Shown here: in pieces, positions 5,474-34,675 of the stretch | How positions within the stretch are numbered: the first letter of the stretch is position 1 | How the letters are laid out: each line of letters begins with the position of its first letter | Assembly (NCBI RefSeq): GCF_021298855.1 | Contig: NZ_JAJTHI010000038.1 | Location: 1-47,289 of the forward strand | DNA: 47,289 nucleotides | Direction: 5' to 3' | Source of the DNA: Gemmatimonas sp. | GTDB lineage: Bacteria; Gemmatimonadota; Gemmatimonadetes; Gemmatimonadales; Gemmatimonadaceae | Translations under genes and position numbers: made by a program | Notes under the pieces: generated by a model | Told to the model about the DNA's origin: nothing | Database searches by the model: none | The model's input: only the letters and a program-made list of their open reading frames with translations

Positions 5474-6046
5474 GTGACTCCACGCCTCCGCCTTTTGTTT
5501 CCCGTGCTCGCCGCCGCGCTCGTCGCGACGTCGTCGGCACAGGCGCAGGGTGTGGGTGGGGCTGCCCTTGAATCGAAGAAGCCGTTCGCGGCGTTCAATG
5601 CGTCGGCCGAGCGGTTGCGCGACAGCATCGTGTCCAAGGCCCGCGGTTCGGTGGGGACACGCTACAAGCTGGGGGGCACGAAGCCCGGTATCGGTCTCGA
5701 CTGCAGTGGTCTGGTGCGCTACGCCATGGGCGTGCTCGACGTGGTGCTGCCGCGCACGGCGCAGGGGCAGGCCGGCGCCGGTGCCGAGGTCCCCAGGGAT
5801 GTGGCGGCGCTCAAGCCCGGCGACGTGCTCACGTTCGGGCGCGGTTCACGCATCTCGCACGTGGGCATCTACGTGGGCGACGGCAAGATGATTCACGCCA
5901 GCACGTCCCAGCGCCGCGTCATCGAGACGTCCATCACCAAGCGCAACCCCCTCATTCGCCAGTGGAAGGGCGTGCGCCGGTTCGTCGACACCAACTCGGT
6001 GCGCCTGCGCGACAGCCTGCTGGCCATGGCGGACTCGCTGCGCTGA
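5474..6046 (+). CDS. Secreted NlpC/P60 cysteine peptidase
   Basis: 190 residues from a GTG start with a signal peptide (LRLLFPVLAAALVATS, cleaved after AQAQ). The NlpC/P60 domain covers roughly residues 50-150. The catalytic triad is visible as C77 in GLDCSGLVRYAMG, H129 in RISHVGIYVG and H141 in MIHAS. Enzymes of this type cut D-Glu to diaminopimelate bonds in peptidoglycan stem peptides in the periplasm. No SH3 or LysM targeting domain is attached. A strong intrinsic terminator follows at 6074, so the gene is probably monocistronic. Confidence 0.9.
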   Translation: MTPRLRLLFPVLAAALVATSSAQAQGVGGAALESKKPFAAFNASAERLRDSIVSKARGSVGTRYKLGGTKPGIGLDCSGLVRYAMGVLDVVLPRTAQGQAGAGAEVPRDVAALKPGDVLTFGRGSRISHVGIYVGDGKMIHASTSQRRVIETSITKRNPLIRQWKGVRRFVDTNSVRLRDSLLAMADSLR

Positions 6047-6073
6047 GGTCGGCTTCAGCGTTTTGGGTGGTAC

Positions 6074-6104
6074 GCGGCGCGCCTTCGGCGCGCCGCTTTT
6101 GTTT
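6074..6104 (+). terminator. Strong intrinsic terminator
   Basis: A perfect 10-bp GC stem (6074-6083 with 6087-6096) with loop TTC is followed directly by TTTTGTTT. It ends the NlpC/P60 transcript and also forms the left end of the composite palindrome described next. Confidence 0.85.
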
Positions 6105-6233
6105 GCAGGGGAGGGAGCAGGGAGCAGGGGAAGAGGAGGCGGGCAGCAGGGGCGCCCCCTCTTCCCCGTTCCCCCTGACCGTCTGCCCCCTGCTCCCTCC
6201 CTTGTCAACAAAGGCCGCGCCGCAGGCGCGGCC
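6105..6233 (+). repeat. G-rich/C-rich palindrome with minus-strand terminator
   Basis: GGGAGGGAGCAGGG at 6109-6122 pairs exactly with CCCTGCTCCCTCCC at 6188-6201, and an inner 10-bp arm (6127-6136 with 6158-6167) nests within it. The plus-strand arm fits a G-quadruplex pattern (four G-runs with loops of 1, 4 and 4). At 6213-6233 a 9-bp hairpin follows which, read on the minus strand, is trailed by TTTGTT. The whole stretch from 6074 to 6233 is thus roughly symmetrical. Bases 6234-6339 hold only the leader of the S9 gene. Confidence 0.75.
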
Positions 6234-6339
6234 ACCCCTTCCCACCGCACCGCACGGTTGCGGCAACGGCGCCCGGCGCGCACCGTTGCGGCAGTGCCCG
6301 TGCACACGGGCATCCCGCCTCAACCGGAGATCCCTCCTG

Positions 6340-8397
6340 ATGCAGCAACTGACCCGTCCGTGGCGGCGCGTGTGGCTCGTGGCCGCGCTCGCCCTCCCCG
6401 CTACGCTCGCCCCGTCATCTCACCTGCTGGCGCAGGGCGCGCCGCCCAAGGATCGCCTCACCCTTGCCGACTACTTCAACTGGGAAGATGTCGGCAACCC
6501 CGCGCTCTCCCCTGATGGCCGGCAGGTGCTGTACACGCGTACCTGGATCGACCAGCTGAACGATCGGCGCGAATCGTCGGTGTGGATCATGAACGCCGAC
6601 GGCACGAGGAACCGCTTCCTCGTGAAGGGGTCGGACGCCCGCTGGAGCCCAGACGGCACCCGCATCGCCTATGTGGCCCCGGGTGAACCGGGCGGGGCGC
6701 AGCTGTGGGTGCGCTACATGGACGCCGAAGGGGCAACCACGCAGATCACGCGACTCACCGAAGCGCCGAGCGAAATCGAGTGGAGCCCCGACGGCAAGTC
6801 CATCGCCTTCGGCATGCTCGTGCGTCAGAGCGACGACTGGCGCATTGCCATGCCCGCCGCACCACGCGGTGCGAAGTGGGTGGAACCGCCGCGCGTGGTG
6901 ACCAAGGTGCGCTACCGCGCCGACCGGCAGGGCTTCCTGGAGAACGGACTGCGTCAGCTGTTCACCGTACCCGCCGATGGCGGAACGCCGCGCCAGATCA
7001 CCAGCGGAGAGTGGCCCGCCAACGGCAACAGCTGGACGCCCGACGGCAAGGCGCTGCTGTTCACCTCCAATCGCGTGGCCGACGCCGAGTACACCTGGCG
7101 CCAGAGCGACATCTACAAGGTGGACGTGGCCAGCGGCACCGTGACGCCGCTGACGAAGCGCAATGGCCCCGACGGCAGCCCCGTGCCCAGCCCCGATGGC
7201 CGCTACATCGCGTACACCGGGTACGACAGCACCGACGCCACCTGGAAGGACGCGATCCTGTACGTGATGGATGCCGACGGCAGCAACCCGCGCGCGCTCA
7301 CCGAAAAGCTCGACCGCTCGCCGGCCGGCATGATGTGGGCGCCCGATGCGTCAGGCGTGTACTTCAACGCCGAGAACGAAGGCTCCCGCCACCTGTACTT
7401 TGCGTCACTCAAGGGTGAGGTGCGTCAGGTGACCAAGGGGGCGCAGGTGCTCACCGTGACCGATCTCGGCAAGTCGTTCCTCGCCGTGGGGACCATGAGC
7501 ACCGCATCGCGTCCCACCGATATCGTGGCCTTCGACGTGCGCACCCCCGCGCCGCGGTGGCTCACCGACGTGAACGGCGACGTGCTGGCCGGCAAGCAGC
7601 TCGCGACCACCGAGGAGGTCTGGTACACCTCCGTGGATGGCTACAAGATCCAGGGGTGGATCGTGAAGCCCGCCGACTTCGATCCGAAGAAGAAGTACCC
7701 GCTCATGCTCGAGATTCACGGCGGCCCGCACAGCATGTACAACGTGGGCTTCAGCTTCGCGCGCCAGGATCACGCGGCCAACGGGTATCTCATCCTGTAC
7801 ACCAATCCGCGCGGCAGCACCGGCTACGGCAGCGCCTTCGGCAACGCCATCAAGAACGCGTATCCCGGCAAGGACTACGATGATCTCATGGCGGGCGTGG
7901 ATACCGTCATCAACCGCGGCTACGTGGACCGCAACCGCCTGTACGTCTTCGGCTGCTCGGGCGGCGGCGTGCTCACCAGCTGGATCGTGGGGCACACGAA
8001 CCGCTTCGCTGCGGCGAGTGCCAACTGCCCGGTCACGAACTGGCTGAGCTTCGTGGGCACCACCGACGGCTCCAGCTGGTACTACAACTTCGCCAAGTAT
8101 CCGTGGGATGACCCGAGCGAGCACCTCAAGCGGTCACCGCTCATGTATGTGGGCAACGTGCAGACGCCCACCATGCTCATGACGGGCGTGAACGACCTGC
8201 GTACCCCCATGGGGCAAACCGAGGAGTACTATGAGGCGCTCAAGATCCGCAAAGTGCCCACCGCGATGATCCGCTTCAACAATGAATGGCACGGGACGAG
8301 CTCGACCCCGTCCAACTTCCTGCGCACCCAGCTCTATCTGCGCAGCTGGTTCGAGAAGTACACCCAGCCGCCCGCGGCGAAGGTCACGCAGGAGTGA
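6340..8397 (+). CDS. Secreted S9 prolyl-oligopeptidase-family peptidase
   Basis: 685 residues from an ATG preceded by CCGGAG, with a signal peptide ending near SSHLLAQG. Residues ~45-430 form a PD40/TolB-like propeller (LSPDGRQVLY, WSPDGTRIAY, WSPDGKSIAF, WTPDGKALLF, PSPDGRYIAY). The rest is an alpha/beta-hydrolase domain beginning around the EIHGGPHSMYNVGF oxyanion block. The triad is visible: S540 in FGCSGGG, D619 in VNDLRTP and H651 in NEWHGT. Probably a periplasmic or secreted peptidase of the acylaminoacyl/dipeptidyl type. Substrate specificity cannot be read from sequence. Cys replaces the common Trp/His before the nucleophile. Confidence 0.9.
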   Translation: MQQLTRPWRRVWLVAALALPATLAPSSHLLAQGAPPKDRLTLADYFNWEDVGNPALSPDGRQVLYTRTWIDQLNDRRESSVWIMNADGTRNRFLVKGSDARWSPDGTRIAYVAPGEPGGAQLWVRYMDAEGATTQITRLTEAPSEIEWSPDGKSIAFGMLVRQSDDWRIAMPAAPRGAKWVEPPRVVTKVRYRADRQGFLENGLRQLFTVPADGGTPRQITSGEWPANGNSWTPDGKALLFTSNRVADAEYTWRQSDIYKVDVASGTVTPLTKRNGPDGSPVPSPDGRYIAYTGYDSTDATWKDAILYVMDADGSNPRALTEKLDRSPAGMMWAPDASGVYFNAENEGSRHLYFASLKGEVRQVTKGAQVLTVTDLGKSFLAVGTMSTASRPTDIVAFDVRTPAPRWLTDVNGDVLAGKQLATTEEVWYTSVDGYKIQGWIVKPADFDPKKKYPLMLEIHGGPHSMYNVGFSFARQDHAANGYLILYTNPRGSTGYGSAFGNAIKNAYPGKDYDDLMAGVDTVINRGYVDRNRLYVFGCSGGGVLTSWIVGHTNRFAAASANCPVTNWLSFVGTTDGSSWYYNFAKYPWDDPSEHLKRSPLMYVGNVQTPTMLMTGVNDLRTPMGQTEEYYEALKIRKVPTAMIRFNNEWHGTSSTPSNFLRTQLYLRSWFEKYTQPPAAKVTQE

Positions 8398-29172: not shown

Positions 29173-29173
<1 letters not shown>

Positions 29174-29388
29174 TGTGCAACGACAACGTCATTCGCCGCT
29201 TCGCCGGCGTGTTCATCCTGCTCTCGGTGCTGCTGGGCTTCACCGTGTCGCAGAATTGGTTCTTCTTCACGGCGTTCGTGGGCTTCAACCTGCTGCAGTC
29301 CAGCTTCACCAGCTTCTGCCCGCTCGAGAAAATCCTCGCGCGGCTGGGCTTGTTCGGATGCCGCGCACCGGCGCAATCTTCACGGTGA
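29173..29388 (+). CDS. DUF2892 (YgaP-type) small membrane protein
   Basis: 71 residues. The ATG shares one base with the pump stop (TGATG). Two hydrophobic segments (FAGVFILLSVLLGF; WFFFTAFVGFNLLQS) lead to the family motif FCPLEKILARLGLFGC with C49 and C63. DUF2892 is the membrane part of YgaP, in which it is fused to a rhodanese domain that carries cysteine persulfide. Here it stands alone. Its position between the pump and thioredoxin 2, with two conserved cysteines, suggests a thiol or sulfur-related role at the membrane; this is inference. Confidence 0.85.
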
Positions 29389-29416
29389 CCTCAATTCCCG
29401 GACGTTCGGAGTTTCC

Positions 29417-29869
29417 ATGAGCAGCACCGACACGCCCACACGGCACGCCATCGTGCCGTGTGGTTCCTGCGGCAAGTTGAATCGGGTGCAGATGCATAGC
29501 GCCAGCGGTGCGCCGGTGTGCGGGACCTGCCGCCGTGCCCTGGTGGTGGACGCCCCCATTACCCTCACCGACGCCACCTTCGACACGGTGATGGCCAAGA
29601 GCACCGTGCCGGTGCTGGTGGACTTCTACGCCGACTGGTGCGGCCCCTGCAAGGCCATGGCGCCGGTCTTCGCCGACTTTGCGCGTCGGCAGAAGGGCCG
29701 CGTGCTGGTGGCCAAGGTGAACACGGATGAGAACCCGGGCGTCTCCATGCGCTTCGGCATTCGCAGCATCCCCACGCTCACGCTCATGCACGGCGGTCGC
29801 GAAGTCAGTCGCCAGGTTGGTGCCGTGCCCATGGCCGTGCTCGAGCAGATGGTAAGCGGCATCGGGTGA
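29417..29869 (+). CDS. trxC: Thioredoxin 2 (TrxC)
   Basis: 150 residues. An N-terminal zinc ribbon with C15/C18 (PCGSCGKLNRVQ) and C35/C38 (CGTCRRALV) precedes a thioredoxin fold with active site WCGPC (C75, C78), VDFYADWCGPCKAMAP, KVNTDENPGVSMRFGIRSIP and the cis-Pro segment SIPTLTL. This layout defines TrxC, a cytoplasmic disulfide reductase commonly induced by oxidative stress. It follows the DUF2892 gene by 28 nt, so it is likely the last gene of the efflux operon. It converges on the ArsR-type gene with only 15 bp between stops. Confidence 0.95.
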   Translation: MSSTDTPTRHAIVPCGSCGKLNRVQMHSASGAPVCGTCRRALVVDAPITLTDATFDTVMAKSTVPVLVDFYADWCGPCKAMAPVFADFARRQKGRVLVAKVNTDENPGVSMRFGIRSIPTLTLMHGGREVSRQVGAVPMAVLEQMVSGIG

Positions 29870-29884
29870 CCCCCGCCTGCCCCG

Positions 29885-30217
29885 TCAGCGCCCGGCAATG
29901 ACCTTGCGGCGCTCAGTGAGTTCGGTCTCGAGCCGGCCGCAAACGAGTTCGCACAGCTTGAGGACGTCCTTGTCGGCCAGTTCGTAGCGCACGTACACGC
30001 CGTCGCGCTCGCGGGCCACGAGGCCGTTGGCAAACAGCTGCGACAGATGCCGCGACACGTTCGCCTGCCCCATGCCGGTGGCCTCGACCAGCTCGTTCAC
30101 CGTGCGCGGCCCGCCGCGCAGCTCCTGCAACAGGCTCAGGCGGGCGCGGTCGCTGAGCGCCTTGAAGCGCTCGGCCACCATCTCCAGCAACTCCGGCCCC
30201 ATGCGCTTGGCTGCCAT
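29885..30217 (-). CDS. ArsR/SmtB-family transcriptional regulator
   Basis: 110 residues from the ATG at 30217, which has GGAGGG six bases upstream; the frame is open further but without a ribosome site. The winged helix is clear: FKALSDRARLSLLQEL, then TVNELVEATGMGQANVSRHL as recognition helix and RDGVYVRYELAD as wing. The ELCVCDL arsenic motif is absent. The only cysteines are C89 and C93 in the last helix (LCELVC), a place where redox- or persulfide-sensing members and some metal sensors keep ligands. It likely represses the adjacent efflux/TrxC operon and itself through the shared AT-rich motif. Confidence 0.9.
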   Translation of the reverse strand: MAAKRMGPELLEMVAERFKALSDRARLSLLQELRGGPRTVNELVEATGMGQANVSRHLSQLFANGLVARERDGVYVRYELADKDVLKLCELVCGRLETELTERRKVIAGR

Positions 30218-30240
30218 GTCACGCCCTCCGGTGGCGGTGC

Positions 30241-30275
30241 ACTGATACAAACATACGTAACAATGAATATATAGC
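30241..30275 (-). promoter_or_regulatory. AT-rich promoter/operator of the arsR-type gene
   Basis: An AT-rich island upstream of the regulator start. On the plus strand it reads TACAAACATACGTAACAATG followed by AATATATA. The blocks TACA, CAT, GTAA and ATATATA recur in the same order at 23428-23451 before the efflux operon. ArsR-family repressors usually bind AT-rich dyads over their own promoters. Confidence 0.5.
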
Positions 30276-30284
30276 CCAACGAAC

Positions 30285-30316
30285 GGGCGCGCTACCCGCC
30301 TGCCGGCAGCGCGCCC
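30285..30316 (-). terminator. Hairpin between the osmC-like and arsR-type genes
   Basis: A 9-bp perfect stem (30285-30293 with 30308-30316) with a loop containing GCCGGC. It lies 13 bp beyond the stop of the minus-strand osmC-like gene and upstream of the arsR promoter region. It could separate the two transcripts, though no T-run is present. Confidence 0.4.
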
Positions 30317-30329
30317 GCCCTACCGTCAC

Positions 30330-30761
30330 TCAGCCCAGCGTGGCCGTGAGCGTGATCTCGGCGTTCAGCACCTTCGACACGGGGCACCCCACCTTGGCGG
30401 CGTTGGCCAGCTCCTGGAACTGCTCGGCCGAAATGCCCGGCACCTTCGCGTCGAGCGTCAGGTGCACCTTCGTGATCGCAAAGCCGCCATCCTTCTGCTC
30501 CAGCGTCACCGCCGCCGTCGTCGCCAGCGATTCCGGCGTGAAGCCGGCACGGGTGAGCTGGCCCGACAGCGCCATCGAAAAGCACCCCGCGTGCGCCGCC
30601 CCGATCAGCTCCTCGGGGTTGGTGCCGTTACGGCCGCTCTCGTCCTCGAAGCGCAGCTTGAACGAATACGGGGTGGCGCTGAGCACGCCGCTCGGCGTGG
30701 TGATGGTGCCGTTGCCGTCCTTGATGGTGCCGTGCCAGACGGCCGAGCCAGTGCGGATCAT
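30330..30761 (-). CDS. OsmC/Ohr-family peroxidase
   Basis: 143 residues from the ATG at 30761, the length of OsmC. The two peroxidatic cysteines are C60 in GAAHAGCFSMALS and C126 in AKVGCPVSKVL. GRNGTNPEELIGAAHAGC and FEDESG are OsmC-branch signatures. Such proteins reduce organic hydroperoxides with thiol donors such as lipoylated proteins or dihydrolipoamide; some also handle reactive sulfur. The context beside thioredoxin and an ArsR-type regulator supports a peroxide or thiol-stress role. Divergent from the dehydrogenase pair across 157 bp. Confidence 0.93.
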   Translation of the reverse strand: MIRTGSAVWHGTIKDGNGTITTPSGVLSATPYSFKLRFEDESGRNGTNPEELIGAAHAGCFSMALSGQLTRAGFTPESLATTAAVTLEQKDGGFAITKVHLTLDAKVPGISAEQFQELANAAKVGCPVSKVLNAEITLTATLG

Positions 30762-30918
30762 GGAGATGCCCCGTGAAGGTGTCAGTGCGAGTGGTGTGAT
30801 GGGCGCCAACCAGCCCGGCGAACCGTGCCGGCGACGCTGAGGAACGCTCGCCCGTTGACGCGCAAGGATCAAGCGCCACGGCTTGCGACATGGCCCGCCG
30901 CGCCGTCATTTCCGCCGC

Positions 30919-31581
30919 ATGCGATCAGACGACGCCACACCGCCCGCGCCGGCGCGCCGGCACTTTCTCAAGACGGCCGGCGTACTGGCCGTGGGCACCG
31001 CCGCCGTGGGCAGCAGCGCCTGCGATGTGAAGGAACCCGCCACGGTGGACGAGCAGCCCGCCTCGCGCCGAGTGGGCTTCGACCGCGTGCTGCTCGACGC
31101 GCTGGCCAGTACCGTGCTGCCGGCCGCGCTGGGCGAGGCGGGAGTGCGCGCGGCCACCGACCGTTTCGTGGCGTGGGCCGATGGGTACGATCCGGTGGCG
31201 GAAGAGATGCACGGCTACGGCTACGCCGACGTGCGCTACCTGCCCGCAGACCCGGTGCCGGCCTGGCGCGCCCAGCTCGACGCGCTCGACATGCTGGCGC
31301 GCAAGTCGCAACGGGTGCCCTTTGTCCGCGCCACACCAGGCCAGCGCACCGCCGTGGTGGAGGCTGCGCTGCGCGCCGAGGGTGGTGAACGGCTGCCGGC
31401 GCCGCTGGCGGCACGGCATGTGGCGCTCGCCCTGCTGGCGCACTGGAGCGCCTCACCGGAGGCGTGGAACCTTGCGCTGGGGGCCCAGGTCTCGCCGCTG
31501 ACCTGCCGCAAGCTCGACGACGCCGTGCGGGCGCCGCTGCCGTTGGCCCCCACCGCCACGCCGGCGGGGGGCACGACATGA
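30919..31581 (+). CDS. Gluconate 2-dehydrogenase subunit 3-like (gamma subunit)
   Basis: 220 residues. A Tat-type signal, RRHFLKTAG at residues 13-21, is followed by a hydrophobic stretch and SSACDVK (C35, possibly lipidated). The mature part has the family pattern: LLDALASTVLPAALGEAGV, then FVAWADGYDPVAEEMHGYGYADVRYLP and WNLALG. In FAD-dependent glucose and gluconate dehydrogenases this small subunit carries the Tat signal and escorts the flavoprotein across the membrane as a hitch-hiker. The stop overlaps the ATG of the flavoprotein gene (ATGA), in keeping with a tight complex. Confidence 0.8.
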   Translation: MRSDDATPPAPARRHFLKTAGVLAVGTAAVGSSACDVKEPATVDEQPASRRVGFDRVLLDALASTVLPAALGEAGVRAATDRFVAWADGYDPVAEEMHGYGYADVRYLPADPVPAWRAQLDALDMLARKSQRVPFVRATPGQRTAVVEAALRAEGGERLPAPLAARHVALALLAHWSASPEAWNLALGAQVSPLTCRKLDDAVRAPLPLAPTATPAGGTT

Positions 31582-33194
31582 TCGTGCAGGACAGCAGCAC
31601 GGCGGTACACGAGACGGACATCTGCATCATCGGCAGCGGCATCACCGCCGCCATGATGGCGGCGCACCTGGCCGAACGTTCATCGCGCCGCATTCTGGTG
31701 GTGGAGGCCGGCGCGCACACCACCCCGTTCGCGCAGCGCACCGCCGCGCGCGAGCGCTACCTCGCGTACGGCGAAAGCCCGTGGAAGTCGGACCACCTCG
31801 ACGATCAGAACGCCTTCGGCACCACGTGGGGCTACTCGCCCAGCATGCACGTGGGCGGCCTGGCGATGCACTGGGGCGGCGTCTCACCGCGCTATTCGCC
31901 CGAAGACTTTCGTGTGAAGTCGCTGTACGGCCTGGGTGACGACTGGCCCTTCAGCTACGACGACCTCGATCCGTTCTATCAGGAAGCCGAGGAGCGCATG
32001 GGCGTGGCGGGAGAACAGGGGCCGCCCGCACTCGATCCCCGCGGCAAGCCGTACCCGCTGCCGCCGCTGCCGGTGAACCACAACCTCGCGCAGCTGCAGC
32101 AATGGGCGGGCAACGCGGGCATTGCCGCGTGGAGCACGCCCAGCGCCAAGAACAGCACGCCGTTCGCGGGACGCGCGCAGTGCCAGCGGTGCGACAGCTG
32201 CTACCCCGTGTGCCCCACCGGCGCCAAGTATTCTCCCGACTTCACGTGGGAGGCGCTGGTGCGTGAGCGCAAGGTCACGCTGCTCACCGAAACCCTCGTG
32301 CGCCGCCTCGAGGCCGACGCGCGCACCGGCCGCATCACGCACGCCACGGGCAACCGCACCGACCGCAGCGGCGCGCCGGTGGAGATTCGCGCCACCACTT
32401 TCGTGCTGGCCGCGGGCTTCGTGTGGTCGCCGCATCTGCTGCTGCTCTCCCGCAGCAGCGCGTTCCCCGAGGGACTCGCCAACCGCAGCGGCCTCGTGGG
32501 GCGCTATCTGGCGGGACATCGCAACGTGAATGCGTACCTGCGGCTGCCGCTCGAGCTGCTGCCGGGGATCAACGCGCAGCACTCGCTGGTGAGCAAGCAG
32601 TTCATGCGCCCCGGCCGCCAGTCGCGCTACCTGCGGCACGACCTGCGCATCTGGGAGTCGAGCGTGGGGCGCGAACCGCGGCTGCGTGGCGACGACGGTG
32701 CCCTGCTGCTGGGCGATGCCATGCTGCAGGACTGGCAGCGGCGCGCCAAGGGCGCCACGGCGCGCGTGCGTGGCTACTACGACGTGCTCCCCGATCGCGA
32801 CAGTCGCCTCACGCTGCACGACACGCAGCGCAACCGCTTTGGTGACCCCATGCCCACCGTGGCCTTCCGCGATGCCCCCGAAAGCGCGGCGCTTCGCGAG
32901 TGGCAGGAGGAGCAGCTGCGCGAGCTGTTCCGGCGCATGGCCCGCGCGGGGAACGGCGAGATCCTGCGCATGGAGAACAGCGCCAACGACCTGGGGCAGG
33001 AGCATCCCACGGGCGGCTGCCGCATGGGAACCGACCCCGCCAGCAGCGTGGTGAACGCCGAGGGGCGCGCGCACGACCACGAGAACCTGTGGGTGGCGGG
33101 CGCGCCCACGCAGCCCACCGCGGGATGCTGCAACGGCACGCTCACGTTCGCGGCCGTGGGACTGCGAACGGCCGCGGCCATCGCGGCGGGCTGA
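31578..33194 (+). CDS. GMC oxidoreductase with FeS motif (alpha subunit)
   Basis: 538 residues, no signal peptide of its own. The N-terminal FAD fold starts DICIIGSGITAAMMAAHL (GSGITA at 19-24) with LVVEAG. LAMHWGGVSPRYSPEDF is the GMC flavin-site block. The C-terminal block is HPTGGCRMGTDP ... LWVAGAPTQPTAGCCNGTLT. A CX2CX2CX3C motif, C202, C205, C208 and C212 (CQRCDSCYPVCPTGA), corresponds to the cysteine cluster of FAD-dependent glucose dehydrogenase alpha subunits, which bind an FeS centre. It oxidises an alcohol or sugar in the periplasm. No multihaem cytochrome subunit follows, so electrons must leave by another carrier. Confidence 0.88.
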   Translation: MIVQDSSTAVHETDICIIGSGITAAMMAAHLAERSSRRILVVEAGAHTTPFAQRTAARERYLAYGESPWKSDHLDDQNAFGTTWGYSPSMHVGGLAMHWGGVSPRYSPEDFRVKSLYGLGDDWPFSYDDLDPFYQEAEERMGVAGEQGPPALDPRGKPYPLPPLPVNHNLAQLQQWAGNAGIAAWSTPSAKNSTPFAGRAQCQRCDSCYPVCPTGAKYSPDFTWEALVRERKVTLLTETLVRRLEADARTGRITHATGNRTDRSGAPVEIRATTFVLAAGFVWSPHLLLLSRSSAFPEGLANRSGLVGRYLAGHRNVNAYLRLPLELLPGINAQHSLVSKQFMRPGRQSRYLRHDLRIWESSVGREPRLRGDDGALLLGDAMLQDWQRRAKGATARVRGYYDVLPDRDSRLTLHDTQRNRFGDPMPTVAFRDAPESAALREWQEEQLRELFRRMARAGNGEILRMENSANDLGQEHPTGGCRMGTDPASSVVNAEGRAHDHENLWVAGAPTQPTAGCCNGTLTFAAVGLRTAAAIAAG

Positions 33195-33428: not shown

Positions 33429-33686
33429 CTATCTTCCCGCTCGAATGCGGGCGAGGACTGCGGGGCCCTGGTCTCTCGTCTCCTCGGGCATCGCGCGGCG
33501 CAGCGCGGTGAGCGTGCGCGCTATGTGTCCGCCGAAGCGCGCGCAGTTGCTGCATGCGGCCAGGTGCCCCTGCAGTTCGGCCACTCGCGGGGCGCCGAGT
33601 GCGCCATCGAGAAAGTCCGACAGGTCGGCCAGCACGTCGCGACAGCGGACACCCGCCACGATCGTATCGAGTCCGTGATCGTTCAT
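33429..33686 (-). CDS. ZAS-type (zf-HC2) anti-sigma factor
   Basis: 85 residues, no membrane segment. The zinc anti-sigma motif is complete: C15 in GVRCRDVL, then H41, C45 and C48 in HLAACSNC (HX3CX2C). This is the arrangement of RsrA and ChrR, where the zinc site holds the sigma factor and, in some members, oxidation of the cysteines releases it. DFLDGALG is also typical. The ATG overlaps the sigma stop (ATGA), as expected for a cognate pair. Cytoplasmic; the redox sensitivity is inferred from motif and neighbours. Confidence 0.9.
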   Translation of the reverse strand: MNDHGLDTIVAGVRCRDVLADLSDFLDGALGAPRVAELQGHLAACSNCARFGGHIARTLTALRRAMPEETRDQGPAVLARIRAGR

Positions 33687-34297
33687 GGTGCGCTACCGGT
33701 GTGAGTGGAGTCGCGAGGCGCTGCGGGGGGTGCCGCGATATGCTCGAGCGAGCGCACGACGGCGGCGAGATGGATGCGGGCGCGATGCAGGCGGCTCTTC
33801 ATGGCCGCCACACTGACCTGGAGAATCGCCGCCGTTTCGTCGCCGGAGAAACCGTCGAGCTCGCGGAGCGTGAGCACCTCACGCTCTTCCTGCGGCAGGC
33901 GCGCGAGGGCCACCTGCAGCAGTTCGTGCAGCGCGCGGTCATCGGCGTCGGCCGTCGCCTCCGGCAGACTCCCCCACCCCGCCTGTTCGGCGAGCTGCTC
34001 GATGCTTTCCAGCTGCGCCGGCTCGTCGACACGACGCCGCTGCTGGTGATGCACGGCGTGGCGGGCAATGGTGTAGAGCCACCCGCGCGCCCCGCCGTCG
34101 TGCCCGGTGCCCCGGAAGTGCCCGGCACTGCGCCACACCGCAATGAAGGTGTCCTGCACGGCGTCGTCCACGTCGGCCGACCCGGTGAAGGTGCGCAGGT
34201 AGCGCGCCACGGGGGCCTGGTGCCTTCGCATGAACGTCTCGAAGGCACCCGTGTCACCCGCCGCGGATGCGGCCAGCAGCACCGCATCGCTGATCAC
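33683..34297 (-). CDS. ECF-family RNA polymerase sigma factor
   Basis: 204 residues from a GTG whose last two bases are part of the upstream stop (GTGA). Region 2 is at ~18-87 (FETFMRRHQAPVARYLRTF, DVDDAVQDTFIAVWRS, RGWLYTIARHAVHHQQRRR). Region 4 is at ~124-180 (LPQEEREVLTLRELDGFSGD, ETAAILQVSVAAMKSRLHRA). Length and layout are those of group IV (ECF) factors. It is encoded between a DUF2892 protein and its presumed anti-sigma, all overlapping by four bases, so the three should be coexpressed and perhaps autoregulated from the divergent region 34504-34675. Confidence 0.92.
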   Translation of the reverse strand: MISDAVLLAASAAGDTGAFETFMRRHQAPVARYLRTFTGSADVDDAVQDTFIAVWRSAGHFRGTGHDGGARGWLYTIARHAVHHQQRRRVDEPAQLESIEQLAEQAGWGSLPEATADADDRALHELLQVALARLPQEEREVLTLRELDGFSGDETAAILQVSVAAMKSRLHRARIHLAAVVRSLEHIAAPPAAPRDSTHTGSAP

Positions 34298-34503
34298 GAG
34301 GGCTGGCGCACCTTGCAGGTGGAGAAGCCCAGGATCGTGTAGAGCGGGCAGCTGCTCAACGTGGCGGTGAGCAGCGGGATGATGCCAAGGAATCCCCACG
34401 CCGCCTTCGGGCCGGTGAACGCCATGGACAGCAGGGCAATGCCGAGGGCGAAGCGCAGCGCCCGATCGATCGTACCGACGTTCTTCTTGAGCAGGGCCGA
34501 CAT
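34294..34503 (-). CDS. Second DUF2892 small membrane protein
   Basis: 69 residues from an ATG with GGAG eight bases upstream. NVGTIDRALRFALGIALLSM and the two membrane segments end in the DUF2892 motif SCPLYTILGFSTCK, with C52 and C63. The spacing matches the classical CPLY...LG..TC form more closely than the copy at 29173. First gene of the operon with an ECF sigma factor and a ZAS anti-sigma; its stop overlaps the sigma start. A membrane thiol protein in front of a redox-type sigma pair suggests it either feeds the sensor or is a regulated product. Confidence 0.87.
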   Translation of the reverse strand: MSALLKKNVGTIDRALRFALGIALLSMAFTGPKAAWGFLGIIPLLTATLSSCPLYTILGFSTCKVRQPS

Positions 34504-34675
34504 GGACGTATCTCCGGTGAGGGTGGGGAGTGTACCGGTCCCGAACGGGATCGCGGGTCCTCACTGTGGAGAGCCGGAAGATGGGCCAAAGGATTCCGCG
34601 CCGCACGCCGGACTTTCCCGACCCGCCCCCGGGGGCGAATTTCCGGAGTTGGTTTCCCCTACCCCAGACCATCCA

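Follow-up and report, generated by a model that had tools for sequence, protein, structure and literature searches.

A predicted ECF sigma/zinc anti-sigma switch with DUF2892 as its likely conserved product in Gemmatimonadota and Myxococcota

Like the locus considered here, SigR-RsrA of Streptomyces and RpoE-ChrR combine an ECF sigma factor with an adjacent soluble zinc anti-sigma factor. RsrA has the same Cx25Hx3Cx2C geometry as the anti-sigma factor of this locus, and self-regulation is typical of ECF/ZAS redox pairs. RsiW and RslA are anti-sigma factors of the membrane-anchored kind. The third gene of the locus encodes a DUF2892 protein; DUF2892 is widespread, and we know of no settled function for its stand-alone form. 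In E. coli, sulfide derepresses ygaVP, in which YgaV is an ArsR repressor and YgaP a rhodanese-DUF2892 protein (PMC9774250), and thiocyanate export has been proposed for the YgaP transmembrane domain (PMC4730233). Stand-alone DUF2892 proteins are described from Azospira suillum, where H2S oxidation is accompanied by a roughly 10-fold rise of Dsui_0042 (PMC5358917), and from Bradyrhizobium, where bsr5776 lies next to trxC and the trxC operon belongs to the NnrR regulon (PMC6710368).

The window, by which the whole analysed stretch of 47,289 nucleotides of Gemmatimonas sp. DNA is meant, carries three genes on the minus strand in the order DUF2892, ECF sigma and zf-HC2 anti-sigma, with a predicted promoter ahead of them:

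34569..34596, minus strand: predicted ECF-type promoter GAATCCT-N14-GGCTCTC, 14/14 against the motif from 28 aligned sites in relatives
34596-34590 and 34575-34569, minus strand: predicted -35 box and -10 box of this promoter, 65 nt ahead of the DUF2892 start codon
34294..34503, minus strand: DUF2892 / YgaP-like_TM small membrane protein, 69 aa; PF11127 74.6 bits (cut-off 25.3), E 6.7e-21
33683..34297, minus strand: ECF sigma, 204 aa, GTG start at 34297; PF04542 and PF08281 above cut-off
33429..33686, minus strand: soluble zinc-binding zf-HC2 anti-sigma, 85 aa; PF13490 38.8 (cut-off 22.2)

The DUF2892 stop and the sigma start overlap in GTGA (34297-34294) and the sigma and anti-sigma genes in ATGA (33686-33683). 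A sequence-only reading of this DNA had seen the three genes as tied together by these overlaps, and both the exact coordinates and the family assignments, all above cut-off, agree with it. The DUF2892 protein of the module has a conserved CP...C with residues C52 and C63, and its AF2 model consists of two helices (11-29 and 37-50) at a low pLDDT of only 59; no solved structure matched this protein in a profile search. The genome has just two PF11127 matches, both of which are within the window. The second DUF2892 (29173-29388; PF11127 41.5 bits) is divergent, with 32% identity, and 5 kb from the module, as had been pointed out. A scan allowing 0-2 mismatches found no GAATCCT-N14-GGCTCTC motif at this gene, which is therefore not tied to this sigma. 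It overlaps an RND transporter gene by TGATG and is followed by a TrxC-like thioredoxin gene, and the same region (29173-33194) also holds genes for an ArsR-family regulator, OsmC, a gluconate-dehydrogenase-subunit-3-type protein and a GMC oxidoreductase. In five related genomes, too, the RND, ArsR and OsmC genes remain close to the module. The GMC oxidoreductase gene, which adjoins the module, was considered as a part of it and rejected because it recurs in some relatives only.

The sigma factor has the make-up of an ECF, with regions 2 and 4 only in about 200 aa (PF04542 1.3e-13, PF08281 5e-17, TIGR02937 above cut-off). An order-level search of 151 genomes gave a sigma match below 1e-25 in eight, and PF11127 adjoins it in all eight (six upstream, two downstream). 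Phylum-wide, 395 Gemmatimonadota genomes were divided sharply by a profile built from these sigmas, with 20 at E below 1e-60 and the remainder above 1e-35; by its profile scores, the sigma is a distinct ECF subfamily, set apart sharply from other ECFs. The anti-sigma gene adjoins the sigma gene in 20/20 of these carriers, and DUF2892 lies within 1.5 kb of it in 19/20; DUF2892 also adjoins the sigma of genome G085, which is cut by a contig end. Beside the next-best ECFs of the Gemmatimonadota comparison set, DUF2892 was found at none of nine loci. In a sigma tree the Gemmatimonadota set and locus L059 form one clade (support 95/88), and the loci in which the sigma gene comes first cluster with genome G338 (89/90).

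A scan of named genomes returned 14 loci, each of which has all three genes, and as one of them belongs to a Myxococcales MAG, the search was extended to 377 Myxococcota genomes, 42 of which have the sigma at E below 1e-42. DUF2892, sigma and anti-sigma follow each other in this order at all of the first 30 Myxococcota loci read; overall DUF2892 is present in 35 of 38, the three loci without it all being among eight further, weaker matches. No other gene recurs beside the Myxococcota module, except in one group of four near relatives. Directly downstream of one of the weaker sigma relatives (L276, genome G451) lies a thioredoxin gene (6000-6398, minus strand) with no DUF2892 nearby. The search for DUF2892 beside ECF/zf-HC2 pairs that the sequence-only reading had suggested has thus been run, and as the linkage is kept in two phyla, the neighbourhood is not one found in this genome only. 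Judged from these genomes, the three-gene association is far more general than one genome.

The upstream regions of the operon share the motif GAATCCT-N14-GGCTCTC, which is matched at 11 or more of its 14 positions in 19 of 24 operon loci, with a spacing of 14 throughout; about 3% of shuffled upstream sequences reach this level. At least 13/14 is attained in 15 of the 24 and in 0 of about 4600 shuffles. The consensus from 28 sites is tGAATCCTtt-N12-tGGCTCTCt, and in the window the perfect copy at 34569-34596 (minus) is the sole match with 0-2 mismatches. Because the motif was derived from and recognised on these operon loci themselves, the fair tests are the independent comparisons with nine other ECFs, with 27 DUF2892 genes in genomes that have no such sigma, and with the second phylum: 11/14 is reached upstream of 0/9 and 0/27, respectively, and at 20/30 loci in Myxococcota. 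A looser pattern, GAATCCT-N14-GDCTC, was followed genome-wide and gave 41 matches in 21 carriers as compared with about 0.8 match per genome in real non-carrier genomes, which were used as background instead of a reversed-pattern control that set the background too low. Most hits outside the module are explained by this background rate; the excess in carriers is accounted for by the module and DUF2892 sites, with the remaining matches mostly inside genes. This implies a very small predicted regulon in which, apart from the switch, DUF2892 is the predicted constant member. Another regulator could conceivably use the motif, but the exact form of the two boxes and the joint occurrence of motif and sigma speak against this. 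At the Myxococcales locus L209 (genome G395), a related ECF within the same genome is flanked on both sides by GAACCCT-N13-GGCTCTC (at 1418, minus, and 2303, plus), with near-identical boxes at a spacing of 13 and one copy facing a multicopper-oxidase-like gene; this is perhaps a sister system.

The reading that we consider probable is a self-regulated sigma/anti-sigma switch with DUF2892 as its dedicated, conserved product. Conservation of the genes, the promoter motif, the placement of the motif and the zinc motif form its basis in the genomes compared, and from these we infer that the sigma itself would read the motif, what signal would act on it and what role DUF2892 would have in the membrane. 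The soluble zinc-binding anti-sigma would hold the ECF sigma until a signal releases it; the most plausible signal is a thiol-reactive agent, for instance sulfane sulfur or an oxidant, that would attack the Zn-(Cys)3His site. The freed sigma would then read GAATCCT-N14-GGCTCTC before its own operon and before any DUF2892 gene outside the operon, with the outcome that more DUF2892 would be placed in the membrane and more sigma and anti-sigma made. In a few genomes, sulfur-handling genes appear to have been added to the switch.

The complete zinc motif of C15, H41, C45 and C48 that had been noticed in the anti-sigma factor is present, and its C-x25-H-x3-C-x2-C spacing is invariant in all 23 anti-sigma homologues, each with exactly three cysteines. 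All 23 also conform to the ZAS (class I ASD) motif of Hx3Cx2C with an upstream Cys, and none contains a transmembrane stretch; an N-terminal VAGxxCR is nearly invariant across Gemmatimonadota. As the three cysteines are all zinc ligands, thiol chemistry at the anti-sigma is plausible. The zinc motif alone does not establish the label "redox-type" that the anti-sigma had been given, and against the RsrA equivalog model TIGR03988 the protein scores 33.2 bits, below the cut-off of 62.5. Its AF2 model is helical (pLDDT 87), with RsiW and RslA as the top relevant PDB matches of a fold search, albeit weak ones (Foldseek E 3.6-6), and RsiW is also the closest solved structure by profile, with DdvA, RsrA and RslA near as well.

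A possible, if rather doubtful, alternative is that the zinc is structural and the signal neither a thiol oxidant nor sulfane sulfur, so that the switch would answer some other stress and DUF2892 would have an unrelated role in the envelope. Zinc-binding anti-sigmas are common and their zinc motif may serve structure alone, RsiW being an example (PMC7406223) and also the closest solved structure by profile, and most of the loci have no adjoining sulfur or redox genes. Against this stands the enrichment of zinc motifs in soluble anti-sigmas (about 72%), which is consistent with intracellular redox sensing (PMC7406223), together with the invariance of the three cysteines, the lack of any further one and the sulfur genes attached to the switch in two genomes, G102 and G477.

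In G102, a 13/14 motif lies 36 nt ahead of a TauE/SafE-family exporter gene, after which the operon encodes a metallo-beta-lactamase/rhodanese protein of the persulfide-dioxygenase type, for which no NCBIfam cut-off was passed; the operon also holds a type III sulfide:quinone reductase (SQR), as a C-terminal fragment only. In the Myxococcota genome G477 the motif is followed by DUF2892, a tandem rhodanese, sigma and anti-sigma in one run; a persulfide-dioxygenase-type gene lies about 4.5 kb upstream of this module, which also follows SulP and SoxA/TsdA-type genes. Counted within about 7 kb of the module, sulfur genes occur in 3/36 Myxococcota and 0/17 Gemmatimonadota neighbourhoods. The relevance of polysulfide or sulfide, suggested earlier from the sequence, is backed at a minority of loci (G102 and G477), but sulfur genes are rare overall. 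A conserved control of the persulfide-dioxygenase-type gene by the motif was also considered and rejected, as close relatives of this gene in other carriers are without the motif. The gene neighbourhoods, together with the published sulfide responses of ygaVP and Dsui_0042, make a sulfur signal for the switch plausible; in the genome of the window, this operon is the only one marked by the motif, and the sulfur step is therefore extrapolated there. It is a tentative proposal, and one that we regard as somewhat unlikely, that a new ECF group of Gemmatimonadota and Myxococcota senses reactive sulfur species directly at a zinc-thiol anti-sigma and has as its main task to raise DUF2892, a small membrane protein that would transport or process sulfane sulfur. 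If true, this sulfur-sensing group would parallel the sulfide-responsive ArsR repressors as an ECF-type system; the literature searched contained no relevant report of an anti-sigma responding to persulfide. At another locus (L018, genome G116), DUF2892 lies beside a rhodanese-like frame and a divergent ArsR-like gene, an arrangement that is ygaVP-like by eye.

Rearranged and unlinked copies of DUF2892 bear on its position within the switch. At four loci of the sigma-first clade the motif occurs again in the stretch that separates the anti-sigma gene from DUF2892; in G244, which is also sigma-first, the copy before DUF2892 is weak (10/14). In G338 the motif is present both at the gene upstream of the sigma, whose product is DUF2892-like but longer (21.9 bits against PF11127, under the cut-off), and at a separate DUF2892 gene that stands alone elsewhere in that genome. 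G102 has an additional DUF2892-like protein with a perfect motif (33.1 bits, over cut-off). Since displaced and unlinked DUF2892 genes have their own motif and those of non-carriers do not, DUF2892 most likely serves as the main output of the autoregulated sigma/anti-sigma switch and not as a part that feeds the sensor. Such a feeding role had been suggested on account of the DUF2892-first order; the variable gene order and the promoter at the displaced copies and at the unlinked one in G338 speak against it.

That DUF2892 acts as a membrane co-sensor or modulator signalling to the cytosolic anti-sigma, with its constant company with the sigma reflecting sensing, is quite improbable. As the anti-sigma is soluble in 23/23 homologues, an input from the membrane would have to reach it through a partner, DUF2892 is the sole constant companion, and translational coupling of DUF2892 and sigma would fix their stoichiometry; yet in one clade DUF2892 exits the operon and a promoter copy goes along, the unlinked gene of G338 is likewise marked, and in G122, of the same genus, DUF2892 is retained at the syntenic position although the sigma pair is absent. 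This G122 gene (L047, 11742-11918) occupies the slot between GMC oxidoreductase and S9 peptidase with the motif absent upstream, which may represent either a loss of the module or the condition before its gain. A chance adjacency of the three genes, or one due solely to shared ancestry of the local region, would draw on the ordinary compactness of bacterial genomes and nothing else, and is refuted with near certainty by linkage in two phyla, divergent sequences, rearranged orders and a shared promoter.

Set against SigR-RsrA, the autoregulated switch with DUF2892 as its product differs in that the anti-sigma is below the RsrA cut-off and has no Cys beyond the zinc ligands, that the promoter is a different one and that a tiny regulon with DUF2892 at its centre is predicted. 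The anti-sigmas of SigW-RsiW and SigL-RslA are the best, though weak, profile and fold neighbours of the present anti-sigma in the PDB; the anti-sigma here is without a transmembrane helix. In E. coli ygaVP a DUF2892 domain is likewise the controlled product of a thiol-based sensor, but ygaVP uses a repressor in place of a sigma/anti-sigma pair and its DUF2892 is fused to a rhodanese domain. Dsui_0042 and bsr5776 are stand-alone DUF2892 proteins as here, with no ECF sigma described. A link of DUF2892 to an ECF sigma was not found in the literature searched, though an ECF group number, so far unremarked, may exist for this sigma; as far as this literature goes, the ECF and zinc anti-sigma machinery is known and its DUF2892-dedicated form with the promoter is new. 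As the module recurs with one matching promoter in two phyla, DUF2892 looks like its main product, the function of which becomes testable. The sigma/promoter pair is defined and conserved between the two phyla, and a dedicated switch with a defined promoter would offer a direct handle on the function of DUF2892 and on the inducing signal.
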